Shown one piece after another: positions 22,022 through 64,000 of a stretch of DNA of 64,000 nucleotides. This DNA comes from Diacronema lutheri (lineage: Eukaryota; Haptophyta; Pavlovophyceae; Pavlovales; Pavlovaceae), in the NCBI GenBank assembly GCA_019448385.1, contig JAGTXO010000008.1:1165573-1229572 (forward strand), written 5' to 3'. The notes beneath the pieces were generated by a model. It did not search any database. It worked only from the letters and a program-made list of their open reading frames with translations, and was not told the origin of the DNA. Position 1 is the first letter of the stretch; the number at the start of each line of letters is the position of its first letter. The position numbers and the translations under genes were made by a program.

Positions 22022-22054
<33 letters not shown>

Positions 22055-33641: not shown

Positions 33642-33674
<33 letters not shown>

Positions 33675-35471: not shown

Positions 35472-35795
35472 GGCGCCGCCGCTTTTCAAAAGGGTGTAGG
35501 GTGTAGGGTGTAGGATGCAAAACAAGCCCTCCCCACATCTGGGCCCGACGTCATTCCTTCTTTCGTCACAGCGTCATTCCTTCACTCCCTGTAGGACTTT
35601 CGTAACCGTACTTATCCTACACCCTACACTATGCAAATACTTAGAGAATAGATACATCCTACACTAAGTAAAAGTACTCGTATGTGAGTAACGTCACGGC
35701 TTCGAAGAAGGAATGACGTCGGGCCCAAATGTGGGGAGGGCTTGTTTTGCATCCTACACCCTACACCCTACACCCTTTTAGAAAGCGGCGGCGCC
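35472..35795. mobile_element. MITE-like element B, inverted copy of element A
   Basis: Reads as the reverse complement of element A across its whole length with a few substitutions (for example ttttcaaaag instead of ttctaaaag at the left end, catctggg instead of catttggg). Near-identity indicates a recent duplication or transposition of one into the neighbourhood of the other. Confidence 0.75.
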
Positions 35796-35889
35796 TCAGA
35801 GCATGGCGCCCGCCCGCTCGAGCCGGACCTCCGCGCAGCCGGACTCGCCCCGCCCCGGGCTGCTCTGGCTGGGCGACGTCGTGCGCGCC

Positions 35890-40306: not shown

Positions 40307-41972
40307 ATGGCGCGTGCACGGCGCGGCGCCTTGAGCAAGTTTTACGTCGTCGGTCGGCAGCCTGTGGAAGACGCGTTTGACGGCCCGATGTGGCCGGTGA
40401 GAGTGCCCGGCGTGCCGCGTGGTGAGCGCCTGCACGGCTTGCCGGGCTCGGCGCGCGCCCAGCCAGCCTCCCTCCATCCCGCCGCAAACCGTGCGTGCGC
40501 ACCCCGCACACCCGGCGCTGCGCGGCGCGGCGCAGGCGCGAAAAACGAGGGCAGCGCGTGCTACACGACCGTCCTTATGCAATCGCTCTTCGCCCTGAAC
40601 ATGCTCCGTGCGATGCTTCGCTCCGCTTCGCGCCGTGCCAACAGCGTCGAGAGGGCGCGTTTTCGGGACTTTGGCACGCTGATCGAGGACACCAGGGCGC
40701 CGACACGGCTGTGTCTTGTGTCCGTCATCGACGTCATCTCGGGCCGTGGCGCGCGAAGGACGCCGCAGGATGCCGCTGAGTTCTTCCGGTTGCTGCTCGG
40801 CCGAGTGCCCGGGCTCGCTGCGGCCTTTGAAGCCGACACACGCGTCGGGCCAGTGCTCGAGCAGATCGCCGTGCCTTCAGAGGCCGGCGAGGGCATCGCC
40901 GTACTCGTCAGCGTCGGCGGCGATGCGGCGCGCGCGCTTGCACACGCTCTGGGGGGCGCCGCTGGGCCGCCGCGGGATCGCCACACGAACGCGGGCCACT
41001 CGGGCGTGCTCACGCCAGCCAGCATTGCTGTCGAGGCGCCGCGCACGACGCGCGGCAATGGCTCGCAGTGCAAGAACAACCGCGCGCTCGTGTGCGCGCC
41101 GCGGCTGCTGCTCGGCGGGCGCGACCACCTCCCCGTCGCCGGCGTGGTGCACGTGGGCGAGGGGCCGATGAGCGGGCACCTTGTCGCCATCGTGCTCCGC
41201 AACGAGGCTTGGTTTCCGTGCGACGACTACAACGTGCGGCGGCGCGCACGGTCGCTCGGTGCCGCGACCGGCGGTCGAGCGCAGCCGCGACCGCCCCGTC
41301 CTCCCGCGCGGCACGCGCGCGTGGCCTGAAAGCTCGCGCGCGCGCCTGCCGCACGCACGCGCGTTGCCCGCGCAGATCTACAACGTGCCTGAGTCCGACG
41401 CGCTGGCGTGGGCAAGTGGTGCGAGCATGCTCGTTCACAGCCGGCTCGACGTGGAGCCGTTGGACCCGGCGCTGGGCTCAGCGTCACCGCCGTCGGCCGC
41501 ATCGCCTGCGTGGCCGAGCTCGGAGCCCGACGCGCCGACCTTGCCGGCAGCCTGGCCGCGGGTGCGGCAGATGGCAGCGGTGCCAACAGATGCGACGATC
41601 GGCATCGCGGAGACGGCTGCAGACATCTCTACGGCGGCGATCGGCCCAGCTGCGTGCGAGGCCCGCCAAGTTGTCTCCGTGACGCGCGCATTGCCAACAG
41701 CGGTGAGTGCGTCCTCGTCTCCGGCGGCCGCTGTGCCCCCCCCCCCCCCACACACACACACACACACAACTCTCCCTACCTTCTTCCTCCTTTCGCACCT
41801 CGCACGCGCACGCCGTCCGCTGTCCGCTGTCCGCGGCCCAAATTGCCTTGCGGAAGCCGAGCAGGCAGAGCCCTGCTTGGATGGCTCCAGCGCGCATCTT
41901 GTGGATGGCGACGCTGTGGGCGAGCACGGACGCTCAAATGTGACCAGTGGCGCGCACGTGCACGTGCGCTAA
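40307..41972 (+). CDS. USP-type (peptidase C19-like) cysteine protease
   Basis: Predicted join 40307-41233 and 41376-41972 (about 507 residues, phase 0 junction, GT-AG). Residues 80-100 read NEGSACYTTVLMQSLFALNM, matching the Cys box of ubiquitin-specific proteases, with catalytic Cys at codon 40559-40561. The His box is GVVHVGEGPMSGHLVAIVLR, with catalytic His at 41177-41179, followed by WFPCDDYN, the usual acidic position. Exon 2 adds YNVPESDALAWASGASMLVH, the closing strand of the fold. The product probably removes ubiquitin or a ubiquitin-like tag. It is short for a USP, without the zinc-finger insertions. The N-terminal 80 residues and the region after about 41460 are not conserved, so start and end are uncertain. 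It lies inside the mobile-looking zone and could be element cargo. Confidence 0.6.
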
Positions 41973-44650: not shown

Positions 44651-44699
44651 AGTATCATCCGGGCCGCCATCCGGACACTGACGTGCCCACAGTCTGCAG

Positions 44700-47600
44700 A
44701 TGGAGGACTCCGTGAAGGACGCTTTGCCCGGCGGGCGGGGCGGCTCGGACAGTTTCTCGCTGGCCCTCAGCACCATTCTGTCGCCGGGAGATACCCACCC
44801 CCACGTGGTCCCATCCACTTGCCTCATCGCCCTGCTGCGTTACGCGGATTTCGGCACGAGCAGGGTTAGGGTGGGCGACACGGGGTGCTCGCAGCATGCG
44901 CTCAAGGTGGCGCTGCGCAACCTGCGCAAAGCATGCGCGGATGCGGACCGGTTTGGGCAGGTGCTCGTGGTCGTGCTACCGCTCTGCCTCCGCGCGTCCA
45001 GCGGCCTCGTGCACTGGACGGCGGCGTACCTGCTCCTCGCGCCGCCCGCGCAGCGCGGCGCGCCGCCCGGCGCCGCGCTCGCCCTGCTCGCCGATTCGCG
45101 CACCTTGGGCAACGGCGAATCGGCGTACGCCACGGCGGCCGGCGTGCTCATCAAGAAGCTTGCGCAGCGCATCGGCAGAACAGCGCCGCCCATCGATGCC
45201 TTCAAGGCGCCCCCGCAGAGTGGGGCCGCGTGTTGCTTCGCCGCGGCAACAGTCGCGGCCGAGGTCGTGGCGAGCGCATCGACGCTCTACGGCCGCCGCG
45301 CGAGTGTCCTTGTCGACATCAAGAAGGCTTTGGACGCGCGCCTCGCGCGCCTCACGACGGCCGCGTACGAGGAGACCCGCGCGCGCACGCTCCGCGCCGC
45401 CATCGGCGCTCTGCTCGGCGACCGCGCCAGGCGCTTCGGCCCGTTCACCCGCGAGGCCGCGCGGCTCGCCGAGGCCGCGCGGCTCGCCGAGGCGTGCGAT
45501 GCCAGTGTCGGCGGATCCGCGCCCGACGGGCTGCTGCAGGCCGTCGAGGCGGCGCTGCGCGCGCCCGACGACCGCATCGCACGCACGGCCGCGCTCGACG
45601 CGCTCACGGGCGCTGCAGGCCGCGCGCTGTCGACGGCGGCCAGGCCGCGCGGCGCGGCGGCGCCAAGGCCGCCGTCGCGAGCGCCACCGCCGCGTGCGCC
45701 GCAGCGGCGCGCCGCCTCGGCGTGGGGGCCCCGACCATTCAGCAGCCTCGGCGGGGGCGAGGGCGACGGGGACGATGGCGACGCCACCACCGCTGACGAC
45801 GGGGAGGGCGCGGAGGACGGGGACGACGACCCCGCGGGCGCGGCGGCTGCGGCGGTGGCGACGGGCACGGCGGCGACGAGCGCGGTGGCGGCGGGCGCGG
45901 CGCCAACCTCGCCGGCGGCGGCGGACGGCGGTGGCTCGGCGCCGCTCGAACGCCGCTGCGTCTACACTGCGCCTGATGAGGGCGACGCGGACGCGCGCGT
46001 GTACGACGCCAAGGACCCCGAGCAGCTAAAAGCGGGCAGGGCGCGGCTACGGGCGAACAGCGGGCGCGCGCCCGCCGTGGTCGACACGCTTTTCGCGCAC
46101 GCGACGGGCACGATCGTCACGCGGCAGCGCACGGAGGGCGTGACCGGCGCGGGCATGCACCACCTCGCCGCCCCGACGCAGGGCGCGGGGTACGGTGCCG
46201 TCGTGCGGGCCGAGCTGGGCGAGCCCGGCTTCGCGGGGACGACATGGCACATGACGTCGGGCGTGGAGAACCAGCCGCGCGCGGTACGAGCGGCCGCGCG
46301 CGCGTACGCGCACGACGGCTGGGGCGGCGTGTACAATGCGCACGAGGACTTTGCCGCCTTCGAGGGCTTGCCGCGGCTCGCCGCGCCCGAATCGCTCGCG
46401 GCCATCGCCGGCGGGTCGGCGGACGCGGTGTTCTGCTGGCGGTCCGGCCGGTCCGTCATCGGCGAGGTGACGACGGTTCACTTCAATGGCGACCGCGCCG
46501 CCGCCATCGACCACGCGCGGGCGCTGCGCGTCAGGCCCGATTGGCGCTCGCAGCCCAGGATCTACGAGGCGGCGTGCGGCGCGGAGGGCACGGTGCTGCT
46601 CGTGTGGGTCGTGCCCGACCGTCACAAGAACCCGCGGCTGGACTGGGCGCCGATTCTCGTCGTGATCCACCTGCCCGCCGACCCCGACTGGCTCGCGCGC
46701 GCCACGCCGGCGATCGCGAAGGCGCGGCGCGAGGTCGAGGACGGACGCGCGCGCGCGGAGGCGCGCGGCGTGCCGCAGCACCTCGCCTACACGCTGAGCC
46801 CACGCTTCCGAGGCACCGCGCCGCGCGGAGCCGCGCGCGTGCCGCCGCGCCTCGGCGCGAGCGACGCGCGCGAGGCGCGCGCGCTCGCGGCGCTCGAGCC
46901 GGCGCTCATGTTCGCGCCGGCCTGGCGGCGCGCGGTGCGCGCGGCGAGCCGCGCCCCCGGCAGTGGCGCCGCGGCCGTCGAGCGCGCGCTCGCGCGCCTG
47001 CACAACGCGCTCGAGCCCGATGACGAGAGCGCGCCCGAGTCGACGCGCGTCGCGCCGCTCGCCGCCGCGCTCGAGCAGTCGGCGGGCTGGCCGGCGGGCA
47101 CGGCGCGCATGGCGGCAAGCGTGACCAAGGGCCCCGGCGTCGGAGATGGCGCAGGTGGCGACGAAGTGACCAAAGTGGAGGAAACGGCGAAGACGAGCGG
47201 CGACGGCTGCACCGGCACGCCTCCTCTGCGCCCGGCCGCGCGCGCGGCCGGCGCGGCGGACGACGGAGGGGCGGCGGTCGTGGCGGGCGTCGAGGGCGAG
47301 CGCGACGCACTCGCCAAGACGGGTGCCGGCGGCTGCGACGACGACGCTCGCGAGCCGCTGTCGGCCGGCAAGCCCGGCGCACTCGCCGCCGCGGCGACCG
47401 TCGGGGGTCTCGGCGAGCTCGTCGGCAGCCTATGCGCGTGGCTGGCGCGCGGCGCGGCTGGCGGCGCCATCGCGGCCATCTCCCCCGGGACGGCCGCGCG
47501 CGGAGCAAACGGCACGCCGCAGCGCGCCGAGCCGCCGGCCGCCGGCGATCCCGTCGCTCCGCACGCGCGCGTCGCCGCTGCGGCGCCCTTGGCGGGCAGC

Positions 47601-49580
47601 GCGGCGGCGCCGTCGTCGGCCGCGCGCGACGCGCAGCGCGGCGTCGCGGGATTCGACGCGGCCGCGCACGCGCACGCGCGCGACGGCAGGCGGGCGGCAC
47701 GGCGGATGCGCGAGCAGGAGGGGGCGGTGCACAGGGCCTTCCGCATGTCCCTCTGGCGCGACGCGACGTTTGTCGAGTTCGTTGAGAAGCTGCGCCCCGA
47801 CGGCGGCGCGCAGCTGCTCGCGCGCGAGCCCACGCGGCGCGCGGCGGCGGTGCTGTGCGAGCTCGCGCGCGGCCGCGACGGCGCGAGCGGCGCGGCCGGG
47901 CTGCTGCACGAGATGAGAGCCGCCGATGCGCGCGCGCGCGAGGCCGCCAAAGCGGCGGAGGCAGCGCGGCCTGCGCACGGGACGCTGCGCATCGTGGCAA
48001 CCGTGGCGCTGGGCGGTGCGGTCTTCGCCGGCATGTCAGCGCTGGTCGTTGCTTGCGCGGCGCGCACGGCGACCGGTGCGCTTTTTGGGGCCCGCCGCCC
48101 GCGGGCGGCCGCGCGCGGAGCCGACGACGCGCTCGGCACGCTGCAGCGCGCCGAGCCGCCGCCCGCCGACAAGGGCAAGCGCAGGCGCGCCAGAGCCAAC
48201 GACGACCCCGTCGACGCGGCGCGCAAGGCCGTGGGCAAGGCGGAGGGCAACTGCCGCAAGGCAGCCCGCCGGCTGCACCTCGCTGCACTGGGCGAGGAGG
48301 AGGCGCAGCAGCGCGTGCTCGACGCCGAGGCGGCGGAGCAGCTGGCGCGCTCGCGCGAGCCGGCCGGCGGCTGGGTAGGCAGCGCGCGCGCGCGCGCGCG
48401 CGCGCGCCCCGCCGCGCGCGCGCCCGTCGATTGGCGTGCGCGCAGCGCAGAACGGCGCGCCAGCTCCGTCACCTGCGCGCCGCCGCGCCCGTGCCCCTCG
48501 CGCGCAGGGGCGCCCTGCGGACCTGCGGCTGCAACAGGCGCACTTTGGCATGCGCGAAGATGCCGACGCGGAAGTGCGCCGCGCGCACGAGGCGCTGCGC
48601 CGGGCGAGACAGGGTGTGGCGTGCGCCAAGGCCAGCGTGCGGCAGATGGAGGCGGCGTTGCTCAACGCGACGCGCTGCGCCACCGCGGTGCTCGCGCCGC
48701 GTGGCGTGCCGGAGGGTGACGAGCAGGCCGCGGCGAGAGAGCAGGCGGCGCTGGACCGGGAGGCGCCGCCGGCCGCGCAACGCGCGGCGCCGACGGCGCG
48801 CTCGCCCTCGGAGCCGCCGTCCGAGTGGGGCCCGCCAGCGGTCGGCCGGCGCCCGACGCCGCGTGCACTGTCGCACGCCGCGGGTCGCGGGGACGACAAC
48901 CCGTTTGCGCCGCTCGCAACCGTCAGCGGCGATTGGTCGCCCACGCCGAGCTCGCGCTCGCCGTCCTCGCCGCCGCGGCAGCCGCCGTCCGACCGCCGCA
49001 GCGCGCAGCGTCGCAGCGCGCGCGCGCGGCCGCCGAGGCCGACCGTTTCGCCCGAGGACGCGCTCGCAGCCGAGCGCCAGGCGCGCGCGCTGTCGGAGCA
49101 GGCGGAGCAGAGGCGCGCCAAAAAGGCCGCCGCCAAGGCCGCGCGCCGCGCCGCGCGCGCCGCCGACAAGCGGACGGCGCGCGTCGTCCACGCGTGCGTA
49201 AGCGCCGCCTTGCGGCGCGTCTGCACGAGCGTCGCCACGGGCACGCCGCTCGCCGTGCTCCGCGAGCGCGCCGAGGGGCCGCGCGCGCCGAAGCCCGCGC
49301 CCGCGCCGCCACGCCGCGCAGCGGACGGCGGCCGCGCGCTCCGCCACGCGCGCCGTGCGGCCGCCGCGGCGGCGGAGCGCGAGGCGGCGGTGGCGGCCGA
49401 CGCCGACGAGCGGTTCGAGCGGCAGCCCTCCGCCGCCCGGTTCGACGGCGGCGATGGCGGCGGAGGCGGCCACGTCGAGGCGAGCGCGCGACCGCGCGCC
49501 GGCGAGGCCGGCGAGGCTGGCGCGCACGGCGCGCCTGGCGCAGCGGGGCCCCCGGCGGCGTCGCTCGCGTCGCGCAGCCC
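44700..49580 (+). CDS. Large protein with N-terminal Ulp1-like (C48) protease signature
   Basis: Starts at ATG 44700; exon 1 runs to about 48374 (1,225 codons). A GT donor at 48375 joins in phase to an AG at 48507 or 48537, giving a coiled-coil segment (DADAEVRRAHEALRRARQG). The 3' end is uncertain. Residues 1-200 resemble Ulp1-type cysteine proteases: His105 in VHWTAAYLLLAP, Asp132 in LLADS, Gln173 and Cys178 in PPQSGAACCFAA. The Asp-Cys gap is 46 residues and Gln-Cys is 5. A second globular region (about residues 420-700) includes GEVTTVHFNGDRAAAIDHAR and TVLLVWVVPDRHKNP; I do not recognise it, though a PD-(D/E)XK-like fold is imaginable. A hydrophobic helix (VATVALGGAVFAGMSALVVA) lies near residue 1105. 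The gene directly precedes the giant Fanzor-bearing gene on the same strand, and the two could be one transcript. Confidence 0.6.
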
Positions 49581-49865
49581 GTGTGATGCGCGCCGCACGG
49601 CACGCCTCCCGCACGCACGCGCCGCAGCCACCTGCGCACGCAACGGCGGCTGGGGTGGCAACGTCGGCGGCGACGTGTGCGGCGGTTGTTTCGGCGGCGG
49701 CGGCGTCCGTCGCGACGCCTGCGGCGGCGGCGACGCCACCTGCGGCTGCGGCGATGGCGGCGTCGGTGCTGGCGCTGGCGAGGCCCCTGCACACGGTGCG
49801 CCGGCGCGCGCGACGGCGTCGCGCTTGCTGCGCTTGCTCGGCGCGCCACGCGCCGTGTCGGTGCG

Positions 49866-52800
49866 ATGGCGCACGCCGCGGCCGTGTTGGCGCGCGGCGT
49901 GGCCGCAGCCGTCGCTGGCGTGCGCGCCGCCGCGCGCGCCGTGCGGCGCGCGCGCCGCCGAGCGCCTCGCGCGCGCCGCACGGCTGCGCGGCGGGCTCGC
50001 GGCCCGCCGATGCGCGACGTCGACGGCGCCCTGCGGCCCTCGCCGTCCTGGTTGCGCACACGCCTCGTCTGCGGCCGGCGCCTCGCGCCTCTGCGCCGCG
50101 CGGGCGCGCGCCCGCCGCCCGCACACGCCGCGCCGAGTTCCCGCGCGCGCGCTGCGCAACCCGACAGCGACGCGCCGGCGTGCGCGCCGCGGCGCTCGGC
50201 GCCTGTCGGTGCGCCGCCGCGCGCGCGTGGCCTGCGCGCGGCGCGCGCACGGCGCTTCCTCGACGTCGCCGGCCGCGCGGCGCGGAGCGCGCGCCTCGGC
50301 GCGCGCATCACGCGCCAGCGCACGCCGGGTTCGCCATCGGAGCCCTGCACGGCCGAGAGCGGCGACGGCGCGGGCGCCGGCGGCGTCGGCGCGGCGGCGC
50401 CTGGCGCGGCGACGATGCGCGCCACCGGCGCGCGCGCAGCGCGCGCTGCGGCGGCGGCGGTCGGTGGCGCCTCGCGTCTCGCGCGCCGCGCGATGGCAAG
50501 CGCCGCCGCCGCTGCCACCTCCATCGCCGGCGCTGCCGCCTCCACCGTCGCCGCCGCCGCCGTTGCCATCGGCGCGGCCGTCACGTCACCGGCGTTCGCC
50601 GCGGCGCGCGGCATGGCGGCCGCATGCGTCGCTGCCTGCGCCCGCCCCACCGCCGCGCAGGCGGCCGCGTCGCGCGCGCTCGGCGCGCTCTTCGTGCTCG
50701 TCGACGCGGCCGACGCGGCGGGCGACAGCGACGCCGCGCTCGGCGCGCTCGCGGCCGCGGTCGACGCGACGGAGCTGCGCCCGCCGCCGGCCTTTTGGCG
50801 CGCGGGCCGCGCCGCGGCGTACGCACCGCGTCCGCCGCCCCTCGACTCGGCGCGGCCGCGCTACAACCGGCGCGCGCGCGCACCTAGCCCTCCCGTCGCG
50901 GCCGCGCGGCGCAATCTCGCGCGCGCGGTGCGCGAGCTCACGCGCGCCGCGCGCGCTGAGCGCGAGCGCGCGCCGGCGCCGCGCGGCGCGCGCGGCGGCG
51001 TGCTCCACGCGCTGCGCGCGTCGCTCCCCGTGCACGCGCGTGCCGCGCTCGGCACGGACGCGGAGCTGCGCGCGGACATCGCCGCGTTCGCGCGCGCGCG
51101 CCGCGAGCTGCACAGCCTCACCGACGCCGAGGTGGCGGCGCTCGCGCGCCCGGACGGGCCGCCGCTGCCCGTGCGGCTCGCGTGCACGGCGGTCGCGCGC
51201 GCGCGCGGCGTGACCGTGCTGCTCGACATCGTGCCGCGCGGCGGCGGCGCGCCCGAGCGGCTCGTGTGCCGCGCCCGTCGCCGCGGCGCCGCCACGCGCA
51301 CGCCACGGCCGACAGCCGCCGTTATCGCGCGCGCGCCTTGCATAGCGGCGCGCGTTGGCCACACTGAGCCGGCGCGCGCGTGCGCGGGCGGATCGATCGG
51401 GGTCGCGCGCCTCCGTTCAGCGCGCCGCCGCTCTTGGCGTGGGGCGCGGCTCGACGTGCACACCCGCGAGCGGCTGGCCACACCGGTGCCAGGCCACGTC
51501 GTGGCCTGCGCCGCCGCCTCGGCCATCGGCGCGTGCGTCGCTCGCGCGCGGCTTGGGCTTGCACGGCTGGCGCGCGCGTGGCCCTGCGCCTCCGCTCCAC
51601 TGGCCGCTGCTGCTGTCGCCTTCGCGCCTGCCGCCGACGGTGTTTTCTGCGCCCCGCTGGGCGCTCCTGCATCCGCCTTCGCGCCTGCCGTCGACGGTGT
51701 TTTCCCCGCCGCACTAGCCGCTGCTGCATCCGCCTTCGCGCCTGCCGCCGATTTTCCCGCCCCACTAGTTGCTCCTGCATTCGCCTCCGCGCCTGCCACC
51801 GACGGCGTTTTCCCCGCCCCACTAGCCGCTGCCGCTGCCGCGTCCGCGCCTGCCGCCGCGGGCGCGTCTTCCGCCCCACCAGCCATCGCCGCCGCGCCCG
51901 CCGCCAACGCGCGCACCGCCAACGTGCCCGTTGCCAACGAGGCTACCGCCACCGAACCAGCCGCCCTTGAGCTTCCCCTCCAACCCGCCAACTCGGCGCT
52001 GCTTGCGTGGGCGGGCGACGCGGCTGCGCGCCGGCTGGCCGCCGCCGCCGCGAGCGCCGGCCTCCCGCAGGCAGAGGTGGAGCGCATCGCCAGCGGCGAC
52101 ATGCTCGCCTCAACCGTCGACGCGTGCTGCGAGGTCGTGCTGCGCGTGCACGGGCAGGCCGGCGGCGGGCATGTCTGCCACGTGCCGCTCGCCGCGCAAC
52201 CCGCGGTGTTTCAGGACGACGCCGAGCGCGCCGCGCTGCTGCACCGCCTGCGCAGCGAGGCGACAACGCAGGCTGTCATCGGCGTGTGGAGCCCGTCGGA
52301 CGAGCGCGGCGGCGCGGGCGGTGACGACGGCGCGCAGCTCGCCTCCGGCCATTTCACCGCGTTGCGCCTTGTGCGCGTCGCGCGCGCGGGCGAGCATCGC
52401 TACGACGCGGTGCTCGTCGACACGCTCGCGTCGCCCTGCAGGCAGGCGCTCATGCTCGCCAAGGCGATAACTGCCACGCTGCACGCGGCGGGTCTCGACA
52501 TTTCGCGCGTGCGCCGCGCGCTGCTGCTCAACGAGGCGGCGCAGCGTGGCGCGACGTGCGGCCTCGCGATAGTGGGCGCGCTCAACGACGCGCTCGCCGC
52601 GGCGGGCTGCTCGTCCGCGCCGCGCACGTTCAGCGTGGCGGACATGTACGCTGTCGGCGAGCGCCTCCGCGTCGCGCTGACCGGCGCGGCCAGCGATCGT
52701 GCGCCGGGCGGTGTCTGCGCGGTCACGAGCGCGGTGCGCGGCGGGGGCAGCCCCGATGGCGCCGAAACGCCGCCGCAGACGCGCGGCGCCAAGGCCGCCG

Positions 52801-52954
52801 CTGGCGTCACCGCCGCCGCCACCGCCGCCGCCACGCCGCCGCCGCCCGCGCTGGGCGCCGCCGCCGCCGCCACCGCCGCCGCCGCCGCTGCTGCCGCCGC
52901 CGTGGCCGCGCCGCCACCGCCGCCACCGCCGCCGCCGGCCGGCGACGCGGGCGA

Positions 52955-53027
<73 letters not shown>

Positions 53028-56000
53028 GCCGCGCGCACGTTCTTGAAGCTCGCGCCCAGGGCGCGCGCGGCCGCCTCGGCGCGTGAGGCGTTGCGCGCCG
53101 CGTGTGCGCGCGCGGACGCGGCGGCGTCGTCACACGCGTCGGCGCCGCACGCGCCCGCCGGTGCGCGCCGCCGGCGGCGCGCGGGCGCAGGCGAGCTGGC
53201 GCTCGCGGCTGCGCGCGCGCTCGCCTCGACGGAGCACGGCGATTTGACGGACGACGCGCTCGAGGCCGCCGTCGAGCAGGAGCTGGGCGACGAGCGCGGC
53301 CAACTGCTGCTGTGCACGCGGGGCGCAGCGGCGCAAAGGCCCGCGCTTTGCCGGCTCCTGAAGCACGCGTGCGCGTCGGCGCGCGCGGCGAAGCGCGCGC
53401 AATTCACGGTATTCGTCGTGCGCGCGGCCACGCGCGGCGAGCGGGGGGGCGCCGCCGCGAGGCGCGTGGACTCGGTGGTCGAGCTGTCGTGCGCGCTGCA
53501 CGAGAAGGCGGGCGCGCTCGGCGGCCTCCAGAGCGTCTGTGTGCGTGGCTTTGCCCTCGAGCGCCGCCGGACACTCGACGCTGGCGCCGAGGCCGGCGCG
53601 TCCGCCATCGGCCAGGACGAGCAGGTCGAGGCAGAGGCGGGCGAGGCGTGCGTCGCCGGCGTGACGATGGCCAAGCAGCTGCGTCAGTTTGCCGAGCAAG
53701 CTGCCCGCGACGACGTGCTCTTCCACGTCGCCGTGTCCGAGGCCGACGCCCACGCCCGGCTGGCGCGCGTTGCGGGTGACGATGTCGGCGCGTACAGCGT
53801 CGTGCTCGCAGTCGCCGGGCTCGTCTGGCTGGCCAAGGCCGACGAGGTTGCGCCGGCGGCCGCCCAGTCCGCCGCCGTGCCGCCCGCCGCCCCGCCTGCT
53901 GCCGCCACGTCCGCCGACGCCGAGCGCGACGCCTCGCCTTACGACCGCCTGCGCGCGCTGACGCTCGCCGTGCGAGTCGCGCTCGCGCGCGGCGTGCTGC
54001 GCCACCTCCTCGCCGACGCGTCGCCGGGCGCGTCCGCGACCGCTGGCGGTAGTTGCGCGACGCCCGTCGAGGCGGCCGCGTCCGACGCCGCGCCGCCCGC
54101 CACGGGCGTCGTGACGAGTGGCGTTGCGGCGGGCGCTGTGGCGGCCGCACCGGCTGCTGCGGGCGGTGCGATGGCGGGTGCATCGCCCATCGCGCGGCCG
54201 GCGAAGCGCGCGCGGCGCACGCTCACCGCCGCTCCAGCCGCCTCGGCCGTTGCGGCCGCTGGAGGCGCACGCGCGGGCGCACGCGGCGCGGCCGGCGCGC
54301 CTCGCGCGCGCGCCGCGCGCGCGCCGGCCGAGTACGTCTGGCTTGCCATCGCGCGCCGGATGCTGGCGGCGCGACACGCGGCGGCCGCGGGCGGCGACTT
54401 TGTCGCGTCGTGCGTCGCCGCGATGCAGGCCGAGTACGGCGACGGCTGTGCCGTCGTCGTCGGCGACGCGCCTGGTGACGCCTTGGTCGAGGCTGCGGCG
54501 GCGGCGCTGCTCGAGGGCAAGCACGCGGCGGTGAGCCTCGGCTGCGTCGACCGGCCGGCGGTGCTCGTCGTGCAGCGCGCCGTGGACGCGCCCACGTCGC
54601 GCGTGCACGGGTGGTGCGCGCACGCGGCGGGCGCCGCCGAGTTTGACGAGGGCGCCGCGCGCGACGTGTTCAACGCGATCGTCGAGCGCGCGTGGGCGCT
54701 GCGTCCGGACCCGGCCGACGGCAGCCCGCCGCCCACGCGCACGTGGGAGGTCGAGCAAATCGCTGACGACGCGCCCGACCAGGCGGGCGTGGCCGCGCTG
54801 CGCGTGCTCTACGCGCTCGTCGCGGCGCACGGCCGCTACCGCTCGGCCGCCGCGCTCTTTGGCGCGATCGCGCAGCTGCACGCGCCCGACGCCGCCGGCG
54901 CGCGCGCGGAGGTCGTCGCGGCGGCGTGCGCGGTGCCGCCCGGCGCGCGGCCGGGCGCCGCGCCGGCGGCCGCGCGGGACGACGCGAGGGAGCGCGCATG
55001 GGAGGGCGCTCAGATCGCCGCGCTCGCCGTCGGCGCGGACGCTGCGCGCAGGCGTGTCGCGCCCGTGCGCGCGCTCGTCGACGCGCTCGGCACGCCGCCG
55101 ACCTCGGCGATCACGGGCGGGCCGGCGGTGCGGCTCGCGGGCGCGGGCGACGGCGGCCACGGTGCACGGTGGGTGGGCGGGCAGGCGGCGACGCCCGCCG
55201 AGCAGCTGCCGAGGGAGCTGCTGCGCGCCTACCACGAGGCGGTGCTGTGCGTCACGCCCGGCAGCCTCCAGCTCGGCCCGGCGGCGCTCGACGCGGTCAC
55301 GCGGCCGCGCGAAAACGACACGCTGGAAGGCCTCCTCGCGCGCGTCAGCTGGCAGTGCGGCGCGAGGGCGAGCACGTGCGCCATGCTCGCCACGTTTTCC
55401 GAGCAGGCGGGCACCGGCTCGCGCGTCGCGCTCAAGGCCCTCCGCACGAGCTCCGACCTGGCCGGGCTGACGGCGGCTGCGGTCGGGCAGCAGGCGCCGC
55501 AGACGCCGCCGCCGCCGCTGCTCGTGATGCTCGGCCGCTGCCCCAGCCCGCTCGTCGGCGGTGGCCTCTTCCCGCCCGACCGCGCGACGGGCGAGCCGGC
55601 GGTGCACGCGGCGACGTCCGAGCTCGCCGTCGAGCTGCTGCGCGACGCGCGCGCGCTGGCCGGCACGGACGGGCGGCTCGTCGTGCTGTGCCTCGAGGCG
55701 TCCAACCCGCTCTGGTTCTGCCCCAAGGTGCGCGAGCTCGAGCTGCCGCGGACGCGGTCGGACGGCGTGCGCGCGTCCGGCTGCACCTGCCCTGCGACGT
55801 GCAGCGATGCGCGCGGCGCGGCGGGTGGCGCTGCCCGCGGCGCATCGACGCGGCCGGCGGCGCGCGCGATCAACAAGGCGGTGCTCGACCACTTCGTCGC
55901 GCTTTTCGGCCGCGAGGGCTTCGCGACCTTTGAGTTTGCGGGCGGCGGCGAGGCGAGCTGGCTGTGCGACAGCGCGGCCGGCACGACGACCGTCGCGGCG

Positions 56001-59000
56001 TGCGCGTCGCTGCCGCCGCGCATGGGCGATGGGCAGCTGGCCATCCGGCGGCACACGCTCGGCACGGGCGCCGACGCGCCGGCGCACGCCGTCGTCTCGC
56101 TCCGCGTCGCGCACGTGAGCCACGCCATCCGCCGCGCGGCGGACGACGGCGGCGCGCGCGCCGAGCGGATGGCGCGCGCCGCGCGCGCGTTTTGCGATGT
56201 GGCGGCCGCGCTGCGCGTCGACGCGATCCTGGCGGAGGTGCCCGAGGACCGCCCGACGGGCACGCCCTTCCTTGGCGGGCTGCTCAAATTTTGGGACAAA
56301 GACCACGGGAGCTCGACGGCGCCAGCCACGCTCGCGCTCGGAGACGTGCGCGAGGTGGCCAAGCGGACGGCCGACGCAGCGGCCGGCCGAGCGGACGAGG
56401 TCCCTGCGGCTGGCCGTCCGCAGGTCGCGGCGCGCGCGTGCGCTGGCGCGATTGGCGGCGGCGCGGGCGCGGCGGGCGCCTCGGACGCTGCGCCGCGTGC
56501 ACTGGCGGGCGCGTCGGGTGCGCGCACGGACGGCGGCCCTGCCGACGCACCGCGCCAGCTGGAGAGCCGCTACGGCGAGGCGAGCAAGCTCGACCTACCC
56601 CAAGATTCCACTACGGGCCGCGTCCTCGACGCTCGCGAGGCCCAGGACCGCGCGCGCGTGCCTGCTGCGCCCGACGGCACAGCGCTGCGCCGCGTGCTCG
56701 ACGCCGTCGGCGCGGGCGCGCCCGCGCAGCGCAGCCCGCGCTGGCACGACGAGCGATGGGAGGAGGTCACGGGCAGCAAGGTTGGCGACGTCGTGAACGA
56801 CAACGCCGGCGTCGCGCACGAGACGCTCACCGACGAGTACGTGCACCGGCGGCGGCGCGAGGTGCGGACCAAGGCGACGACCGCGGGCATCCTCGGCGAG
56901 GCCGTCGCGCTGCGCAAGCTGGCGGCCGCGTACGGCATCACCGTCGTGTGCAACCTGCCGATGGTGCGTGCGGACCCGCACGACAAGAGCGCGCCGTTCG
57001 CCTTCTCGCCGGACGGGCTCGCCATCCTCCCCGAAAACAACGAGCAGGTCCTCGTCGAGGTGAAGACGCTCACCAAGGCGGGCGCCACGGCGCACGAGGA
57101 CGGGCCGCCGCAGCCGCACCGCGATCAGCTGCAGCTCGGCATGCACGTCCTCGGCGTGAGCAAAGCGCTCTACGTGCAGTACCTCAGGCACGAGGACCGG
57201 ATCGTCGTGCACGTCGTGACGCGCGGCGCCGGCTGGCTTGCATTCGCGCAGCCGAGGGTGCAGGCCTTCTGGGCGCGCGTCGTCGAGCGGCGCGCGCGGC
57301 TCGAGCGCGCGCGCGCCGACCACCCGGCTGCGAGCCGGCGGCACCGGCGGCAGCAGACGCCGGCCGGGCCGCCGCTCGTGCTCGCGCTGGACGGGCGCAT
57401 CCCCGCCGCGCGCGCCGCCGCGCTGCACGCCGTCGCGCACGGCACCGCGAGCGCGGCGGCGGTGACGGCGGCGGCGGCGACGGGCGACGCGACGGCGTTG
57501 CAAGACGCGATCGCGGCGCTGCGCGCGCCCGTCGGCAATGCGGCGATCGACAGCGCAGCGCGTGCGGAGCGCGCGGCCGTCGAGCGGGCGATCGCGTACC
57601 TCGGGCAGCCGGCAGGCGACGCCGCCGCCCGCGGCACGGCCGAGGCGGCCGAGGAGGAGAGGACGGTCGACGCCGACATCGGCGCGTTGCTGCACCAGCT
57701 CGGCGCGAGCGTGGCGCACGTGCACGTCGAGGACGCGGATTGCGTCACGCGTGAGCACTGGGGCGGGGCGGTGCTCGCTGCAGCGGGCGACCCGTCGAGC
57801 GCCCCCGCCATTTCGAGCGTCATCGTCGCGCACATCGTGCGCCTCGCCGGCTTTGGCGTCGAGCTCCCGCAGTCGATTCGCGTCGCCCCCAGCACGGCCG
57901 ACTGGCACGAGGGCTGGCTCGACGTGCAGTGCGTGCTGCTGCGCACGCGCCGGCGCGGGCGGCGCGACGACGACTTTGTGGCCGTCGTCAGGCGCGGTGG
58001 GCGCTGGTTTGCGTGCGAGCCCGGCCGCGCGCGGCGGCTGCAGTGGCGGTCGGTCCTGCGCCGCGCGCGCGGCGGCGTCGACGGGACCGGCGAGGAGGCG
58101 TTCGCGGTCGTCTACGTGCGGCGCGGCGACGCGGCCGGCGACGCGGCTGGCGACGCGCAGGCCGAACGGGCGCGCGGCGGGCGCGCGCGCAGGCGCACGC
58201 GCGGCGGCACGCGCAAGCGCAAGCGCGGCGCCTCCGCCGGGCTCGAGGCGGCCGCGCCCGCCGGCGCGCCGGCGGGCGCTGCTCACCGCCCGCCCGCCAG
58301 GCGTGCCACGGTCGCCGCGCGCACCACGCGCTCTGTGACCGACGCGCGGCACTCGGCGCCTGCCGCCACGGTTGCACCTGTCTTCGACTGGCGCGCCGGC
58401 CGCCCGCCCCCTGCCGCCGCCGCCGCCGCCAAGCGCGGCCAGGCGCTCGAGCCGGGGCAGTTCGCGCGGCCGCGTGGGCGCGCGCCATGGGGCAAGGTCT
58501 GGGACAGAGTCTCGGGTGCGTGGGCGGACAAGCCGACTGGTGCTGCCGTCGCCGCCGCGCCGCCGCCGCTGCCGCCCGCCGCCGCGCCGCCGCCCGCCGC
58601 CGCGCCGCCGCCCACCGCCGCGCCGCCGCCCGCCGCCGCGCCGCCGCCCGCCGTCGCGCCGCCGCCCGCCGCCGCGCCGCCGCCGCCGCCGCCACCGGCG
58701 GCGCTCGGCCGCCGGCAGCACGTCGGCGCGGGCGGCAGCGCGGCGGGCCGGCGGCTCGCGGCCATCGCACGGCGGCAGCGCGGCGTGCGCGCGCCGCCGC
58801 CCGCCGCGCGCTTCCTCGCCACGCTGCCGCCACCGCCACGCGACGGCCTCGCGCGCACGAGCAAGCAGGCGCGCGCGAGGCGCAACGCGGACGGACGGCC
58901 GGCGCACGCGCGCGCGGCCAACGCGCGCGCCTTCTACCGCGGCGTGGAGCTCGGCGTGCACGCGACGCGCGCCATCGTCGACGCGCGCCACGCCGACCTG

Positions 59001-62000
59001 CCGCAGGCCGTCTTCGTGGCGGAGGCGCGGGCGATCGTCGCGCGCTCCGCCGGCGGCGGCGCGCTGCTCGCGCCGGACGACGTGCGCGACCTGTGCGACG
59101 CGCAGACGGACGCCGATCGCGCTGCGATCTGGGCGTCGGTGGGCGCGCACGAGGCGACGCGCATCTTCGCGCTCGTCACGCGCAACGCGAGCTTGGCGGG
59201 CGCGGCGCTGCTCGTGCTGCACACGCCGGCGGGCGCGCCGGCGCGCGCGCTCGGGCTCGTGGCGACGCGCTCGCGCGCGCCGTCGACGGGCGCGCCGCGC
59301 GACGCGCACAGGGCGCTGGTGCAGCGGTTGGACGTGCTGATGGACGCGATCGCCGCGGCGCGAGGCGCGTCGCCGCTCGAGCTCGAGCTCGCGCTCGCGC
59401 CCGAGCCGCAGAGCGCGTGCAACGCGCGTGCGGCCGCGCTGCTCTGCCTGCAGGCCGTCGCGGACGCGAGCGGCCGTCCCGCCGCTGAGGACGCGCTGGC
59501 CGCGCTCGACGACGCGCGCGGCATCGACCGGCACTGCCACGCCGTCCGGCAGCAGATCGAGGCGAAGCTCGCGTGGCGGCGCGCCGACGGCGCCGTCGGC
59601 GTTGACGGCGCCGACGGCGCGCCCGCGCTCGCGCCTGCCGCCGCACCGCCGGCGTGCGCGCCGGCGCACGCTGCCGGCGAGGCGGCGGTCGACCAGGCGA
59701 TCGTCACGCGGTGTGCGCGACGCGCTGCGCGCGTGGGCGACGACTGGCACCGCGCCCAGCGCGGCGGTGCTCGACGACGCCTGCGCCGCGTACACGGCCC
59801 GCGCACGCGCGCGCAAGGACGCGCGCACGGCGCTGGGCCCGACGCGCGCGGCCGAGCTGCTCGCCGCGGCCGCGCGCGGCGGAGCCGACGGGGCGGATGC
59901 CGCGCGCGCGCTGCTCGGCGGCACGCCGCGCCTGCTCGTCGTGCTCCTCTGCGTGCCCGTCGCCGCGCCGTCCGGCGAGCCGCCGCGCCCGGTCGGGCTG
60001 CTCGTCGCCGACCGGCCGACGGACGACTCGCGCCCGGCCGCGCTCGTGCGCTACGACTTTGCGCCGCTCGACGCGGACGTGGCCGTCGCGGTCGGCGCGC
60101 ATGCCGTCGCGCTGGCCAGTGCGATCTGGCCGCTGCTCGCGGCCGAGGGGGAGCCGCGGCCATCGCCCGTCGTGCGCTCGCAGCCGCGCGGCGGCGACGA
60201 TGGCGCGCGTGCGCTCGCAACGTTCGCGTGCCTCGACGCGCTGATGACCGCCAGCGTCGGCGCGCACGGCCTCGCGGGCGGCGCGGGCATGCTGCCCGCG
60301 CTGGTCGCGCGAGGCGCCGCGGCCGCCCAGCGCGAGCGGCAGCTGCGCGCGGCCGCCGAGAGGCTGGGCGGCACGGTCGCTGGGTGGCCGGACACGGGCG
60401 CGAGCGCGGCGGGCGCGAGCGTCGACGAGGAGGCGCGCACGTACGAGGTCGAGGCGGTCGTCGACGAGCGCCGCAAGGCGGGCAAGAAGGTGACGTTCCA
60501 GTTCCGGATCAGGTGGCGGGGCTACGACGAGAGCGCCGACACGTGGGAGCCTGAGGCCAACGTGAGCAGCGACCTCGTCGCCCAGTTCCGCAAGACGCGC
60601 GACGAGCAGAAGCGGCGCGCGGGCGTATCGGGCAGCGGCAGCGGCGGCGCGGGCGCGGCGTCGGCATTGGCGTCGGCGCCGCTTCGCGCGCACGGCGAGT
60701 CGGGCGCCGCGGGCAAGCGCGCCGCGGCGGGTGCCGCCGCGAGCGCGCGCGACGCCGCGGGCGCGCGCGCGCCGAGCGTTCCCCGCGCGCGCGGCGTCGA
60801 GCGCGCGCGCGTGGACGAGCCCGCTGCGCCGAGCGCGCGCGCCGCCGGCGGCGCGACGGCGCGCACGCGCGTCAGCGTGCTCCCGGGCTTCGTGGTCAAG
60901 CGCTCGACGCTCAACGCGGGGCCGCAGGCGGTGACGGCGCAGCCCGGTGCGCGGAAGGAGCTGCGGCGCATCGCGGCGGCCGTGCACAGGCTCACGACAC
61001 AGGCGTACCGCGTCATCAACAAGGTGGTGCGCGACGAGGCTGCGGTGGCGAGCGCGCAGGCCGTCGGCGCGGCGTCGGGCGGCCCGTCGACCAGCGTGCA
61101 CACGTCGACCACGATGGACAAGGGAACCGTCCGTGCGATCTTCTCGGCCATCGGCTGGCACAAGGACGAGAGCACGTACGGTGCAGCGCCCCGAGGCAAG
61201 CCCGCCGAGCAAGCCGCCGCGCAGACCAAGGCGGCGACGGCGCGCGCCGTCGGCGAGATGGCCGAGGGCGTCCAGCCCGTCTGCGCGGTGGGCCTCACGG
61301 AGATCCTCGAGGCGGAGGCGACGCAGGTGTCCACCGCGTGCCTGATGCATCCATCGCGCGTCGTGAACGGGCTGCTCCGCGACGTCGTCCGCGCGGCAGT
61401 CGAGCGCGACGAGGCGCTCGTCGCGCTGCCCGAGATGCAGCGAAACGCGCGCGTGCGCGAGCTGTGCGAGCGGCTGCTGCGCGGCGACGTGGAGGGCGCG
61501 CGCGTCGGCTGCCCCGCCGCGCTCGACCGCCACCTGCCCGACATGGTCCTCCACAAGATCGACTACAAGTGCACGCCCACGAAAAGGTGGAACTACGACC
61601 GGCACACGACGCGCTACTTCCTCGTGCAGATCCGCACCCTGCAGCACGTGGCCGAGGGGCAGGCGCTGCTCTGCCGGCTCGCGCACATCCACACGCAGCT
61701 GACCGGACGGCCGCCGCGGTACAATGTGGCGCCGCTGCGCACGCACAATGTGCGCGCGAGGCGTGGCTGCCGCTGCCGCCGCCGAGCGCCCAAGCGCGCG
61801 CGCCGCCGCCGTGCGCGCCGCCCCGCGGCCAGGTTGGTCACGCGCCCGCGCGCTCGCGCGCCGCGCGCTGCGCGCAGGTGCCGCGCAACGTGCGCCTCGC
61901 CGCGAGCGCCATCTGGGTGACGCTTTCGGATGACGAGCGCAAGGAGCTGCGCGCGCGGCTCAAGGCGCTGGACCTGCGCGACCACGATGGCGAGCCGATC

Positions 62001-63596
62001 AAGTGGACAGGCACAAACGGCAACACCCCGCCGATGTCGGACGTGCGCGTCAGGTACGCGGTCTTTGCGACGCGCTTCGACATCTCCAACCGCGTCTTCG
62101 ACTACGCCGGGCGCGAGCGGCCGCCGGCCGATCTGCCGTGGCACGCGCGGCGCTCGTGGGTTGGCCTCGCGCCGCTGCCGCGCGTGCCGCTCCCGGGCCG
62201 GCAGCCCGTCAAGTCGGTGGTGACAGATGGCGTCGCCGTGCACGCCGTCGGGACCGTCCTCGTGCCGAAGGCGCAGGCGCCGGCCGGCGGCTCGGGCGTC
62301 CTGCACCGCTGGCGCCGGCCGGACGGGCGCATCGCCGTCGCGCTCGGCTCCGAGCTGCGGCGGGCGATCGACGTCGAGGCGGCGGTCGTCGTCGCGGCCG
62401 ACCCGAACATGGGCAACATCACCACCTACTCTGCGCACGTCGGGCGGGCGGCCGTCTGGCGGCAGTTCACGCAGCGCGCGCGCGCGCGCGCCGCGGGCTT
62501 TGCGCGCGAGACGGCCAAGACCAACGCGGCGCGGCGGCGCGTGCGCAAGGACGGGCGCGGCGAGGAGTTCAGCGTGGAGGCGGACGAGGCGCGGCTTGGC
62601 GAGGCGCACAGCGCCAAGGTGCTCGACGCGGGCAAATACATCGCCTTCCACCGCGAGAGCGCGCGGGTGCGCGAGCGCGCCGCCGAGCACGTGTACGACG
62701 CGCCGGCGCGCCGGAAGGAGCGCTGGCGGCGCGACAGCGGCGGGCGGTCCAACGCGGCGCGCGTCGCCGAGGCGCTCATCGCGGCGCACTGCGTCGACGG
62801 CGTGACGCGCGACCGGCTGCTCGTGTGCGTGGGCAAGTGGCTGCGCGACCACAAGGGCGCGCAGCCCAAGGGCGCGCCGCCCGCCTTCCAGGTGGGGCTG
62901 CTGCGCGAGCTGCGGCGGCGCGGCGTCGCGGCCGTCTTCGTGCCCGAGCCGTACACGTCGATGCACTGCTCGATGCCGCGGCTCGCCAAGGGCGGCAGGC
63001 TGCAGCGCTGCGGCGCGGAGCTCGCGCAGAACCCGCGCCTGCCCGTGGCAAAGGGCGGCACGCGCACGGTGCACGCGCTCGTCATCTGCCCGGCGTGCAA
63101 CGGCGGCAAGAAGCCCGTGCACCGCGACTACAACGCCGCGCGCAACATCTTCTACGACGTGCACGACATGGCGGCGCACGCGGCCGGGCGCGACACCACG
63201 TCGACGCCTGAGCGCTTTGCCCTCGTGCTCGCCTGGTGGGCGCGCGGCGAGGTGTGGGAGCGTGAGGAGCGCATGGTGCACGGCGAGGGCGACGACTGCG
63301 ACGACGAGTGCGACGGCGACGACGAGGGCGACGACGAGGGCGACGACGACGACGACGACGACGGCAGCGGCGACGGCGGCGGCGGCGAGGGCGACGGCGA
63401 CGGCGACGGAGGCGGCGGCGGCGACGACGACGATGACGGCGGGGGAGGCGGCGGCGGCGACGGCGGTGGCGACGACGGCGGCGGGCGCGGCGGCGGTGGC
63501 GGCGGCGGCTCTCGCGCCCGCACCCCCGCCCGCGGAGCTGCCAGCGCCAGTGCCGGCGGCGGCAGCGCGCGCGGGCCGAAGCGCGGCCGGCGTTGA
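49866..63596 (+). CDS. Giant multidomain protein: Ulp1-like protease, YqaJ nuclease, chromodomain, Fanzor nuclease
   Basis: Frame one runs to about 59710, frame two to 61749, and the last exon is 61878-63596. The 61750-61877 gap is a clean GT-AG intron (phase 0). The earlier frame change fits either a 49-bp GT-AG intron (59711-59759) or a one-base shift near 59705. From ATG 49866 the product is about 4,517 residues; the true start is unknown because the first 600 codons are Arg/Ala-rich and an upstream exon is possible. Domains in order: Ulp1-like (52000-52620); a possible degenerate second protease-like region (54400-54900); YqaJ nuclease (56725-57300); an unassigned stretch with DFVAVVRRGGRWFACEPGRA; Pro/Ala linker (58550-58700); chromodomain (60440-60600); Fanzor (about 60880-63200); acidic Asp/Gly/Glu tail ending in basic residues, possibly nuclear localisation. 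Whether it is cleaved by its own protease is unknown. Confidence 0.7.
52000..52620 (+). other. Ulp1-like (C48) protease signature in the giant protein
   Basis: LASGHFTALRLVRV carries the putative catalytic His (codon 52350-52352). YDAVLVDTLAS carries Asp (52419-52421). NEAAQRGATCGLAI carries the oxyanion Gln (52542-52544) and nucleophile Cys (52557-52559), followed by Gly as in classical Ulp1. Asp-Cys spacing is 46 and Gln-Cys 5, identical to the preceding gene. Such proteases remove SUMO or process polyproteins and are common in eukaryotic DNA transposons. Similarity is by motif only. Confidence 0.6.
52930..53036. repeat. gccgcc triplet repeat in coding sequence (poly-Ala)
   Basis: A near-uninterrupted gcc-type triplet run in the giant ORF, encoding about 30 Ala after a poly-Pro stretch. 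Likely a flexible linker between the Ulp1-like part and the middle region, and prone to length change. Confidence 0.9.
56725..57300 (+). other. YqaJ / lambda-exonuclease-type nuclease domain
   Basis: RSPRWHDERWEEVTGSK is the usual entry motif. GILGEAVALRKLAAAYG gives the first acidic residue (Glu, codon 56898-56900). FSPDGLAI supplies the conserved Asp (57012-57014) and VLVEVKTLTKAG the Glu-x-Lys (57057-57065). HRDQLQLGMHVLG is the Gln motif that follows. All PD-(D/E)XK residues expected for a metal-dependent 5'-3' exonuclease or recombinase are present, so activity is plausible. Confidence 0.8.
58550..58700. repeat. Pro/Ala repeat (18-bp units) in coding sequence
   Basis: Tandem units of gccgcgccgccgcccgcc encode APPPAA-type hexapeptides, about eight copies, with Thr and Val variants. 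It forms a linker between the YqaJ-containing half and the C-terminal half. Confidence 0.9.
60440..60600 (+). other. Chromodomain
   Basis: TYEVEAVVDERRKAGKKVTF followed by QFRIRWRGYDESADTWEPEA and NVSSDLVAQFRK is a textbook chromodomain, with the aromatic positions Tyr, Trp (WRGY) and Trp (DTWEP) that bind methyl-lysine. In mobile elements such domains steer integration or binding to histone-marked chromatin. Confidence 0.88.
60880..63200 (+). other. Fanzor (eukaryotic TnpB-like) RuvC nuclease domain
   Basis: Fanzors are eukaryotic homologs of TnpB and act as RNA-guided DNA nucleases. RuvC-I: VVVAADPNMGNITTY, Asp codon 62400-62402. RuvC-II: VAAVFVPEPYTSMHC, Glu codon 62946-62948, with the family TS before the first zinc Cys. 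Zinc ribbon Cys at 62967, 63009, 63087 and 63096 (ending VICPACNGG). RuvC-III: VHRDYNAARNIFYD, Asp codon 63126-63128. The N-terminal part (RNA/DNA-binding region in the family) includes KELRRIAAAVHRLTTQAYRV and WNYDRHTTRYFLVQI. It is interrupted by the 61750-61877 intron. All three catalytic acids are intact. Confidence 0.87.
61750..61877 (+). other. Spliceosomal intron within the Fanzor domain
   Basis: The donor aat|gtgcgcgcg at 61750 and acceptor gcgcgcag|gtg at 61877 remove 128 bp. The flanks join as LRTHN plus VPRNVRLAAS in phase 0, linking two different frames. The internal sequence is Arg-rich in every frame and lacks family similarity. Confidence 0.8.
63270..63560 (+). repeat. Acidic Asp/Glu/Gly repeat tail of the Fanzor-bearing protein
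   Basis: Interrupted gac/ggc repeats encode a long disordered tail rich in Asp then Gly, followed by a basic Arg/Lys ending (RGPKRGRR) before the TGA at 63594-63596. Acidic tails of this sort are common on chromatin-binding proteins. Confidence 0.85.
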
Positions 63597-64000
63597 CGCA
63601 CGGCCGAGCCGCGCAGCGGTCGACGCTTTGCGGGCTCTGCCCAGGTCGCGCGCGGCTGGCGACGCGTACCGCATTCGGCACGCCCGTGCACGCCGCCACC
63701 CGTGGCCGAGCGCGCCGCACCAGCCGGCCCGCTCCAACCGCCGTGCGGATCACGGACGCTCGCTACGGCTCGTCGGCGCGCGTCACCTGCGCCGGCGGCC
63801 ACGGCGCCGTCTGCTCCGGCCTCGTCGCGAGCAGCCCGACCGCTGCTCGCCGCCCGCACGCCGCCGCAGCAACGCTGCGCGTCGTGCTCCCCCGCTCGCC
63901 AAACGCGAAGAGCTCCCTCACAAGGACGTCCTTCCGAACGGCCCGCGCTGCACTCGGGGCGCGATCGTGCCCCTGATCGGATTTGGCTTGACCATCTATA
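63597..64000. other. Downstream flank, no gene recognised
   Basis: About 400 bp after the last stop. No recognisable ORF or repeat. In TnpB systems the guide RNA overlaps the 3' end of the gene and the element end, so this flank is where an analogous RNA and right boundary would be sought, but I see no clear motif or terminal repeat before the window ends. Confidence 0.4.

Follow-up and report, generated by a model that had tools for sequence, protein, structure and literature searches.

A giant, multi-copy mobile element of Diacronema lutheri that appears to encode a Fanzor nuclease in one gene with a chromodomain and a RecE-like exonuclease

The end of one contig of the Diacronema lutheri genome carries a run of long open frames and raises the question of whether a Ulp1-like protease, a YqaJ nuclease, a chromodomain and a Fanzor nuclease are joined in a single gene, as originally predicted for positions 49866-63596, and what kind of genetic element would carry such a gene. 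The window, i.e. the whole stretch of DNA analysed, takes up the final 64,000 bases of contig C71, in a genome of 43.49 Mb and 103 contigs. The assembly of strain NIVA-4/92 is described as 43,502,671 bp with 22.9% repeats, and no word beginning ‘transpos’ occurs in the main text (PMC8379373). Comparison with the rest of the genome indicates that the region under study is the 3′ part of a mobile element of ~31 kb. The YqaJ part is found at no fewer than 131 genome places, the window included, at 99-100% protein identity (131 of 246 candidates scored), and the TNB profile of the Fanzor has at least 148 genome matches (150 of 306 candidates scored). Most of the latter share a single score of 31.3 bits, and the fetched members of that group belong to the giant-element family. 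In an alignment over 54.8-64 kb, between 22 and 108 substitutions separate each of sixteen other copies from the window; L011 and L019 were omitted from this comparison as too short, and L009/L010 as being the window itself. With at least 131 near-identical places and fixed ends, the ‘transposon’ half of the ‘transposon polyprotein’ once suggested for this locus holds, and the copies indicate a real, unusual, young and recently active family. Its share of the genome is an estimate rather than a measurement: 131 places at 21-31 kb would amount to roughly 3-4 Mb, or 6-9% of 43.5 Mb.

The limits of the element were placed by comparing copies. With window positions 32001-36500 as query, 36 other copies were scored, of which 33 have their start no more than 7 bases from position 32924 (query positions 919-931; 37 of 310 candidates scored), and the remaining 3 start ~100 bp later. 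The 3′ end, position 64000, is reached by all 40 scored copies (40 of 269 candidates). Upstream, window positions 20001-30000 gave only simple-repeat-like genome matches. Tandem arrays with 71-base and 26-base units also lie outside the element, at 13448-14664 and 25443-26216. The extent and termini are as follows.

32924-64000, plus strand: whole mobile element, ~31.08 kb; the contig stops at its 3′ terminus
32924-32929, plus strand: 5′ terminus, TATATA(G/C)GGCGCGG, in 10 of 10 copies with both ends paired
32970-32987, no strand: 5′ subterminal perfect palindrome of 18 bases, 46 bases inside the left end
63956-63973, plus strand: 3′ subterminal hairpin, GGGGC...GCCCC, 27 bases from the right end
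63997-64000, plus strand: 3′ terminal TATA, end of both element and contig

TATA is present at both termini in 10 of 10 paired copies, and the right end reads CCATCTATA in all ten copies with both ends read. Right ends were read in 22 distinct copies; two (L016 and L022) are altered, and in the 20 intact ends the following base is always C. No exact inverted match of 9 bases or more was found between the two 400-base ends, and the last 250 bases at the 3′ side have a folding z of only -1.99. When the joined flanks of copy C42 were searched in the genome, no site spanning the junction was found; TATA may represent a duplication, a recombination core or a target motif. A ~77-base host repeat with two boxes, often directly upstream of the element, surfaced in the same search; in L057 it ends ...GCCGTTAGTATA. 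Insertions may favour this repeat, or it may mark where another element ends; Rfam gave no match on its loci or on the window.

L034, L050, C2:68537-68610, C3:413764-413830 and C36:903459-903500: loci of the ~77-base host repeat, which adjoins several insertions

Several contigs break exactly at element ends (the starts of C1, C6 and C12 and the end of C71), and the giant element probably limits the published assembly. Telomere targeting, considered when several contigs were seen to begin exactly at the element 3′ end, was rejected because contigs C32, C49 and C69 seem to begin at the 5′ end, and because the assembly reads, with an N50 of 23 kb in the available text of PMC8379373, are shorter than the element.

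The 5′ half of the element holds further genes and repeats. Reading of the sequence alone had missed that the region belongs to a 31 kb repeat, which likewise contains a PIF1 helicase and a gene resembling ubiquitin proteases.

33-34.6 kb and 35.9-36.3 kb, minus strand: small unassigned frames
34922-35793, no strand: long inverted repeat with a nested small repeat pair, 90.5% self inverted match
36362-39049, plus strand: PIF1-like helicase region, split over three frames
40400-41290, plus strand: ubiquitin-specific-protease-like (UCH) region, PF00443 at E 4.3e-8

Each of the two ~310-base units that make up the inverted repeat has GGGTGTAGG-type ends, and other copies contain the repeat as well. 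The helicase region matches PF05970 (E 1.4e-24 and 3.7e-14) and Pif1_2B (E 1.5e-9), and its frames are split in copy C42 too. Against copy C14, the UCH region has a dN/dS of 1.07 in frame, versus 0.88 and 0.63 in the other frames; the gene, perhaps a captured host gene, is probably decayed. Since the PIF1 frames are split and the protease-like gene looks decayed, some parts of the element may be relics. Between 41.4 and 44.8 kb, five frames scanned gave no Pfam match.

Copies fall into length classes. Among 17 copies with both ends paired by coordinates, ten measure 30.97-31.08 kb, four 26.28-26.90 kb and two 21.56-21.58 kb; the last, of 22.4 kb, has a shortened 5′ end. In the 26.5 kb class (C42 and C5 inspected), 39371-47097 is replaced by ~2 kb of other sequence. 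In the 21.6 kb copy C14, 39.9-41.7 kb is retained at 87%, and the match is taken up again from 51.88 kb at 86%. These replacements point to modularity in the 5′ and N-terminal part; all copies examined share the YqaJ-chromodomain-Fanzor part. The size classes thus swap 5′ and N-terminal modules in the manner of a cargo-swapping element (L031/L058 for C42, L060 for C5, L059 for C14).

The account preferred here, and considered probable, is that of a DNA transposon family of ~31 kb which would encode a polyprotein of ~6,000 residues and spread by guided cutting, resection and copying-in, with a Helitron2-like or recombinase step for the first insertion. As to class, the best reading is a giant Helitron2-like or an unclassified DNA transposon. 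The PIF1 helicase and the hairpins near both ends point to a Helitron2-like first insertion; membership in Helitron2 itself is doubted because no Rep was found and the ends differ. The closest competitor takes the element to be Helitron2/Helentron-like with captured genes, the Fanzor, YqaJ and chromodomain being passengers and Rep being lost or acting in trans. Besides helicase and hairpins, the swapping of 5′ and N-terminal modules between size classes would suit such an element, and Bao and Jurka 2013 (available part of PMC3627910) describe Helitrons that carry Fanzor1 and a pair of hairpins in Helitron2. However, Pfam on the element ORFs and regular expressions revealed no transposase, HUH/Rep or tyrosine recombinase, searches by which remote forms could be missed. 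The ends are neither 5′TC nor CTRR3′, and the asymmetric terminal inverted repeats characteristic of Helitron2 were not seen at 9 or more exact bases in the 400-base ends. Catalytic residues kept in 16 of 16 copies also count against mere passengers, with little weight given how young the copies are. This alternative is possible rather than probable, and since it overlaps with the first-insertion step of the preferred transposon account, the two are not mutually exclusive. Of the traits of DDE cut-and-paste elements, neither terminal inverted repeats (400-base ends) nor a transposase (Pfam) was found.

The gene itself appears larger than first supposed. Its predicted extent is given below with the candidate introns.

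44700-63596, plus strand: giant gene of ~6,000 codons, with predicted start and introns (~48.38 kb and 61750-61877)
48375-48460, plus strand: candidate intron with provisional 3′ limit, GTAGGCAG followed by a (GC)n tract
61750-61877, plus strand: putative 128-base GT-AG intron of phase 0, splitting the Fanzor

The three plus-strand frames on which the original prediction was built exist (stop to stop, 49587-60554, 59341-61920 and 60555-63596), and codon periodicity extends on that strand from ~44.7 to ~63.3 kb, with GC at third positions of 0.91-0.98 in the domain-bearing parts. The almost continuous single frame then envisaged is upheld in 13 of 16 other copies, where the open stretch begins with the fetched sequence (54.0-54.8 kb), takes in YqaJ, the chromodomain and the N-terminal Fanzor part, and closes at or a little after ~61.92 kb, but the gene would start near 44.7 kb and not at 49866. 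The frame is broken in L015, L018 and L023. Lengths of the frame around YqaJ at the 131 places cluster at 4,490-4,525 aa (64 places); seven are of at least 5,000 aa, the longest 6,136, and 34 are below 4,000. A frame of 4,513 aa corresponds to window positions 48379-61917, and the 5,746 aa of one copy come close to the 5,745.3 codons between window positions 44682 and 61917.

Near 59.71 kb all 16 other copies differ from the window by one base in length, so the frame change there is the window copy's own, either a mutation or an assembly error. Near 49.86 kb C42, the sole copy compared directly, also differs by one base, and this change is probably peculiar to the window copy as well. The window, C42 and C5 each have a different length of the (GC)n tract near 48.38 kb, which may belong to an intron. 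The change near 61.8 kb is present in all 16 copies checked, with GT and AG unvaried and no indels. Of 17 copies, 16 preserve the spacing around it; in L028 there was no match to the anchor. The constancy of this change in position, splice-site bases and length argues for the 128-base intron.

At 75-80% GC stops are rare, and GC-rich DNA yields many long spurious frames on both strands, so the giant frame might be an effect of composition that spans separate genes. Yet codon periodicity keeps to one strand and tracks the domains, at 85 of 131 places the frame around YqaJ reaches at least 4,400 codons (one has a stop inside the match), and in 13 of 16 copies there is no stop between YqaJ and the chromodomain. 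Separate genes are thus distinctly unlikely. That one giant gene joins the Fanzor to the chromodomain and the YqaJ/RecE-type exonuclease is well supported at the level of sequence, and its predicted product would lead from the Ulp1-like module or modules through the exonuclease and a chromodomain of the H3K9me type to the Fanzor at its C-terminus. Ratios of N to S among the 16 young copies range from 0.66 to 2.6, mostly near neutral. Two further parts seen by eye, one resembling endonuclease/exonuclease/phosphatase domains (55-56.4 kb) and a second resembling PD-(D/E)XK nucleases (46.0-46.9 kb), gave no convincing profile match and were set aside.

Of the four families originally read in one frame, the Fanzor, the chromodomain and YqaJ are recognized by profile; the Ulp1-like protease is seen by motif only. 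The segments concerned are as follows.

44700-45389, plus strand: Ulp1-like module A (HW...AD...Q....CC), motif only
51990-52697, plus strand: Ulp1-like module B (GHF...VD...Q....CG), motif only
56673-57320, plus strand: YqaJ/RecE-like exonuclease domain with GxxE, D, ExK and Q, by profile match and residues
60442-60594, plus strand: chromodomain with a Y-W-Y aromatic cage, PF00385
60886-61749, plus strand: Fanzor N-terminal part, by position only, in the same frame as the chromodomain
61878-63596, plus strand: Fanzor RuvC and zinc finger, acidic/Gly-rich tail and stop, PF07282

The chromodomain is the most clear-cut. PF00385 matches at E 1e-12 with 48.2 bits against a cut-off of 25.1, and 57 PDB sequences match at E of 0.01 or less (best 3.9e-10), with CDYL, CDY1 and HP1 as relatives; assignment as an HP1/CDY-like chromodomain is strongly supported by these profiles. 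The cage, the positions of which are presumed from HP1, is intact in the window; in one of the 16 other copies its third residue is changed from Y to N. All nine chromodomain variants among the 16 young copies are amino-acid-changing.

The exonuclease domain matches PHROG 434, ‘RecE-like recombination exonuclease’, at E 1.2e-16. Its YqaJ Pfam score, 20.4 bits, is just below the cut-off of 22 (E 0.025 with the whole 3655-aa frame scanned), and TIGR03033, matched at E 6.2e-7, scores 29.6 bits, below its curated cut-off of 68. The E, D, ExK and Q residues, which presumably have the roles they have in the YqaJ/RecE family, are unvaried in 16 copies; one variant in this part among the young copies is a stop. 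An AlphaFold2 model from the single sequence, with no alignment, had a mean pLDDT of 42.9 and Foldseek matches all at E above 0.1, and against PDB sequences both the YqaJ and the Fanzor parts gave chance matches only.

In the Fanzor, PF07282 (TNB domain) passes by one bit, with 27.3 bits against a cut-off of 26.3 (E 4e-6); NCBIfam TnpB (E 0.084) stays far below its cut-off and the N-terminal part has no Pfam match. The RuvC residues D at 62400, E at 62946 and D at 63126 are unvaried in 16 copies, as are all four cysteines of the zinc finger, in which the second CxxC is present and the first pair reads C-x13-C where Fanzor1 would have CxxC. A shifted glutamate (E-PYTSMH-C from 62946) lies six residues before the zinc finger, the arrangement reported for Fanzors (Yoon et al. 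2023, available part of PMC10711439). RuvC-I reads DPN, not the DPG described there as ‘near exclusively’ present in Fanzors. Membership in Fanzor1 is retained on the other features, as a presumably divergent case given DPN. In a second Fanzor family of the genome (L052, L053, L054 and the more distant L061), the frames measure 670-1,779 aa and contain Gly-rich linkers as well as N-terminal segments that are repeated. Pfam TNB is above cut-off in all four members and is their sole Pfam domain at E of 0.1 or less, with no chromodomain or YqaJ. As far as these four show, the fusion is not general among the Fanzors of Diacronema lutheri.

The protease identity of the Ulp1-like part is a hypothesis. 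Both patterns were written after the sequence had been seen, and were matched by 6 of 3000 shuffles for module A and 2 of 3000 for module B (H...D...Q....CG). Module A has no convincing Pfam match; module B has no match in Pfam or PHROG and chance matches only among PDB sequences. The single-sequence AlphaFold2 model, again with no alignment, had a mean pLDDT of 41.9 and Foldseek matches all at E above 0.1. An alignment of the presumed Ulp1-like repeats was abandoned when the motifs failed to line up. The original claim of a protease therefore keeps its H-D-Q-C motif and lacks profile or fold support. Module B is nevertheless under purifying selection: against one diverged copy its dN/dS is 0.43 in frame, versus 1.34 and 1.45 in the wrong frames, and its motif is kept in a subfamily copy with DNA 14% different.

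Two further origins were weighed. A tyrosine-recombinase (Crypton-like) or other recombinase element, with exchange within a shared TATA core, would account for TATA at both ends with no longer terminal inverted repeats; yet Pfam detects no recombinase domain, and the sole regular-expression match lies in a spurious minus-strand frame, leaving this explanation a slender chance. YqaJ and Ulp1-like genes and PIF1 helicases occur in large viruses of protists, and one paper on Mimiviridae reportedly names both YqaJ and Ulp1. Fanzor occurs in large protist viruses too (available part of PMC3627910). Even so, the remnant of an integrated large virus, spread as a repeat, is a very improbable source: the ORFs of the element that were scanned match no capsid, packaging or polymerase family, and viral contigs held no relatives in four queries able to detect close relatives only.

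Under the preferred account of a transposon family with guided copying-in, the right end of the element would be transcribed into a guide RNA, the guide itself being flanking DNA. The chromodomain would bring the Fanzor to methylated chromatin and so restrict the place of insertion, and the Fanzor would cut a TATA-adjacent empty site, with TATA(C) as target-adjacent motif. Guide RNAs of Fanzor1 take the target-site duplication or fixed flanking bases into their scaffold (available part of PMC10711439), and TATA followed by C at the right end would fit such an arrangement. The RecE-like exonuclease would then resect the break, and the element would be copied in from a sister or a dispersed copy. 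It has been proposed that TnpB cuts the sister chromosome, to which its element is then copied by homologous recombination, and that Fanzors may act likewise (available part of PMC10432273). The first insertion would require a rolling-circle (Helitron2-like) or a recombinase step at TATA, and the Ulp1-like modules may separate the parts of the polyprotein. Cooperation of the two nucleases, and chromodomain-directed cutting, are put forward as a hypothesis. A more radical form, in which spread needs no classical transposase because a guided double-strand break and recombination would bring the element to TATA sites in selected chromatin, with the polyprotein cut by its own Ulp1-like modules, is doubtful.

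Saito et al. 2023 (available part of PMC10432273) describe as open what Fanzors contribute to the elements that carry them. A Fanzor that shares its reading frame with a chromatin reader and a recombination exonuclease offers a testable proposal, i.e. cut, resect and copy in marked chromatin; it would be a natural chromodomain-nuclease fusion and could show how such elements copy into chosen chromatin. Activity, target preference and guide RNAs could be read from one culture, given how young the family is and how many copies it has. No publication with this domain combination was found among the papers listed in a search judged by title, the start of the abstract and term counts, with bioRxiv and most subscription papers outside its range. 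The terms YqaJ, Ulp1 and ‘chromo...’ are absent from the available part of PMC10711439, as are YqaJ and Ulp1 from that of PMC3627910.

Among known systems, Helitron2/Helentron elements likewise combine a PIF1-type helicase with hairpins near both ends; the present element differs in its ends, TATATA...CTATA, in having no asymmetric terminal repeats and in that no Rep/HUH was found. Chromodomain LTR retrotransposons (available part of PMC6338049) also carry a chromodomain in a mobile-element protein. Here there is no reverse transcriptase or integrase match, and the chromodomain stands beside an RNA-guided nuclease. Phage RecE/YqaJ exonucleases (PHROG 434) share the profile match and the E, D, ExK and Q residues, whereas the present domain lies inside a eukaryotic giant protein and no annealing partner was identified. 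The second Fanzor family of Diacronema lutheri is set apart by its DPG and by the absence of chromodomain and YqaJ. With the described Fanzor elements (Saito et al. 2023, PMC10432273; Yoon et al. 2023, PMC10711439; available parts), the element shares the RuvC D-E-D, the shifted glutamate, multiple copies and defined ends. In contrast to these, it is 31 kb long, with no transposase found, and its Fanzor would form the C-terminus of a giant chromodomain/RecE-like protein.
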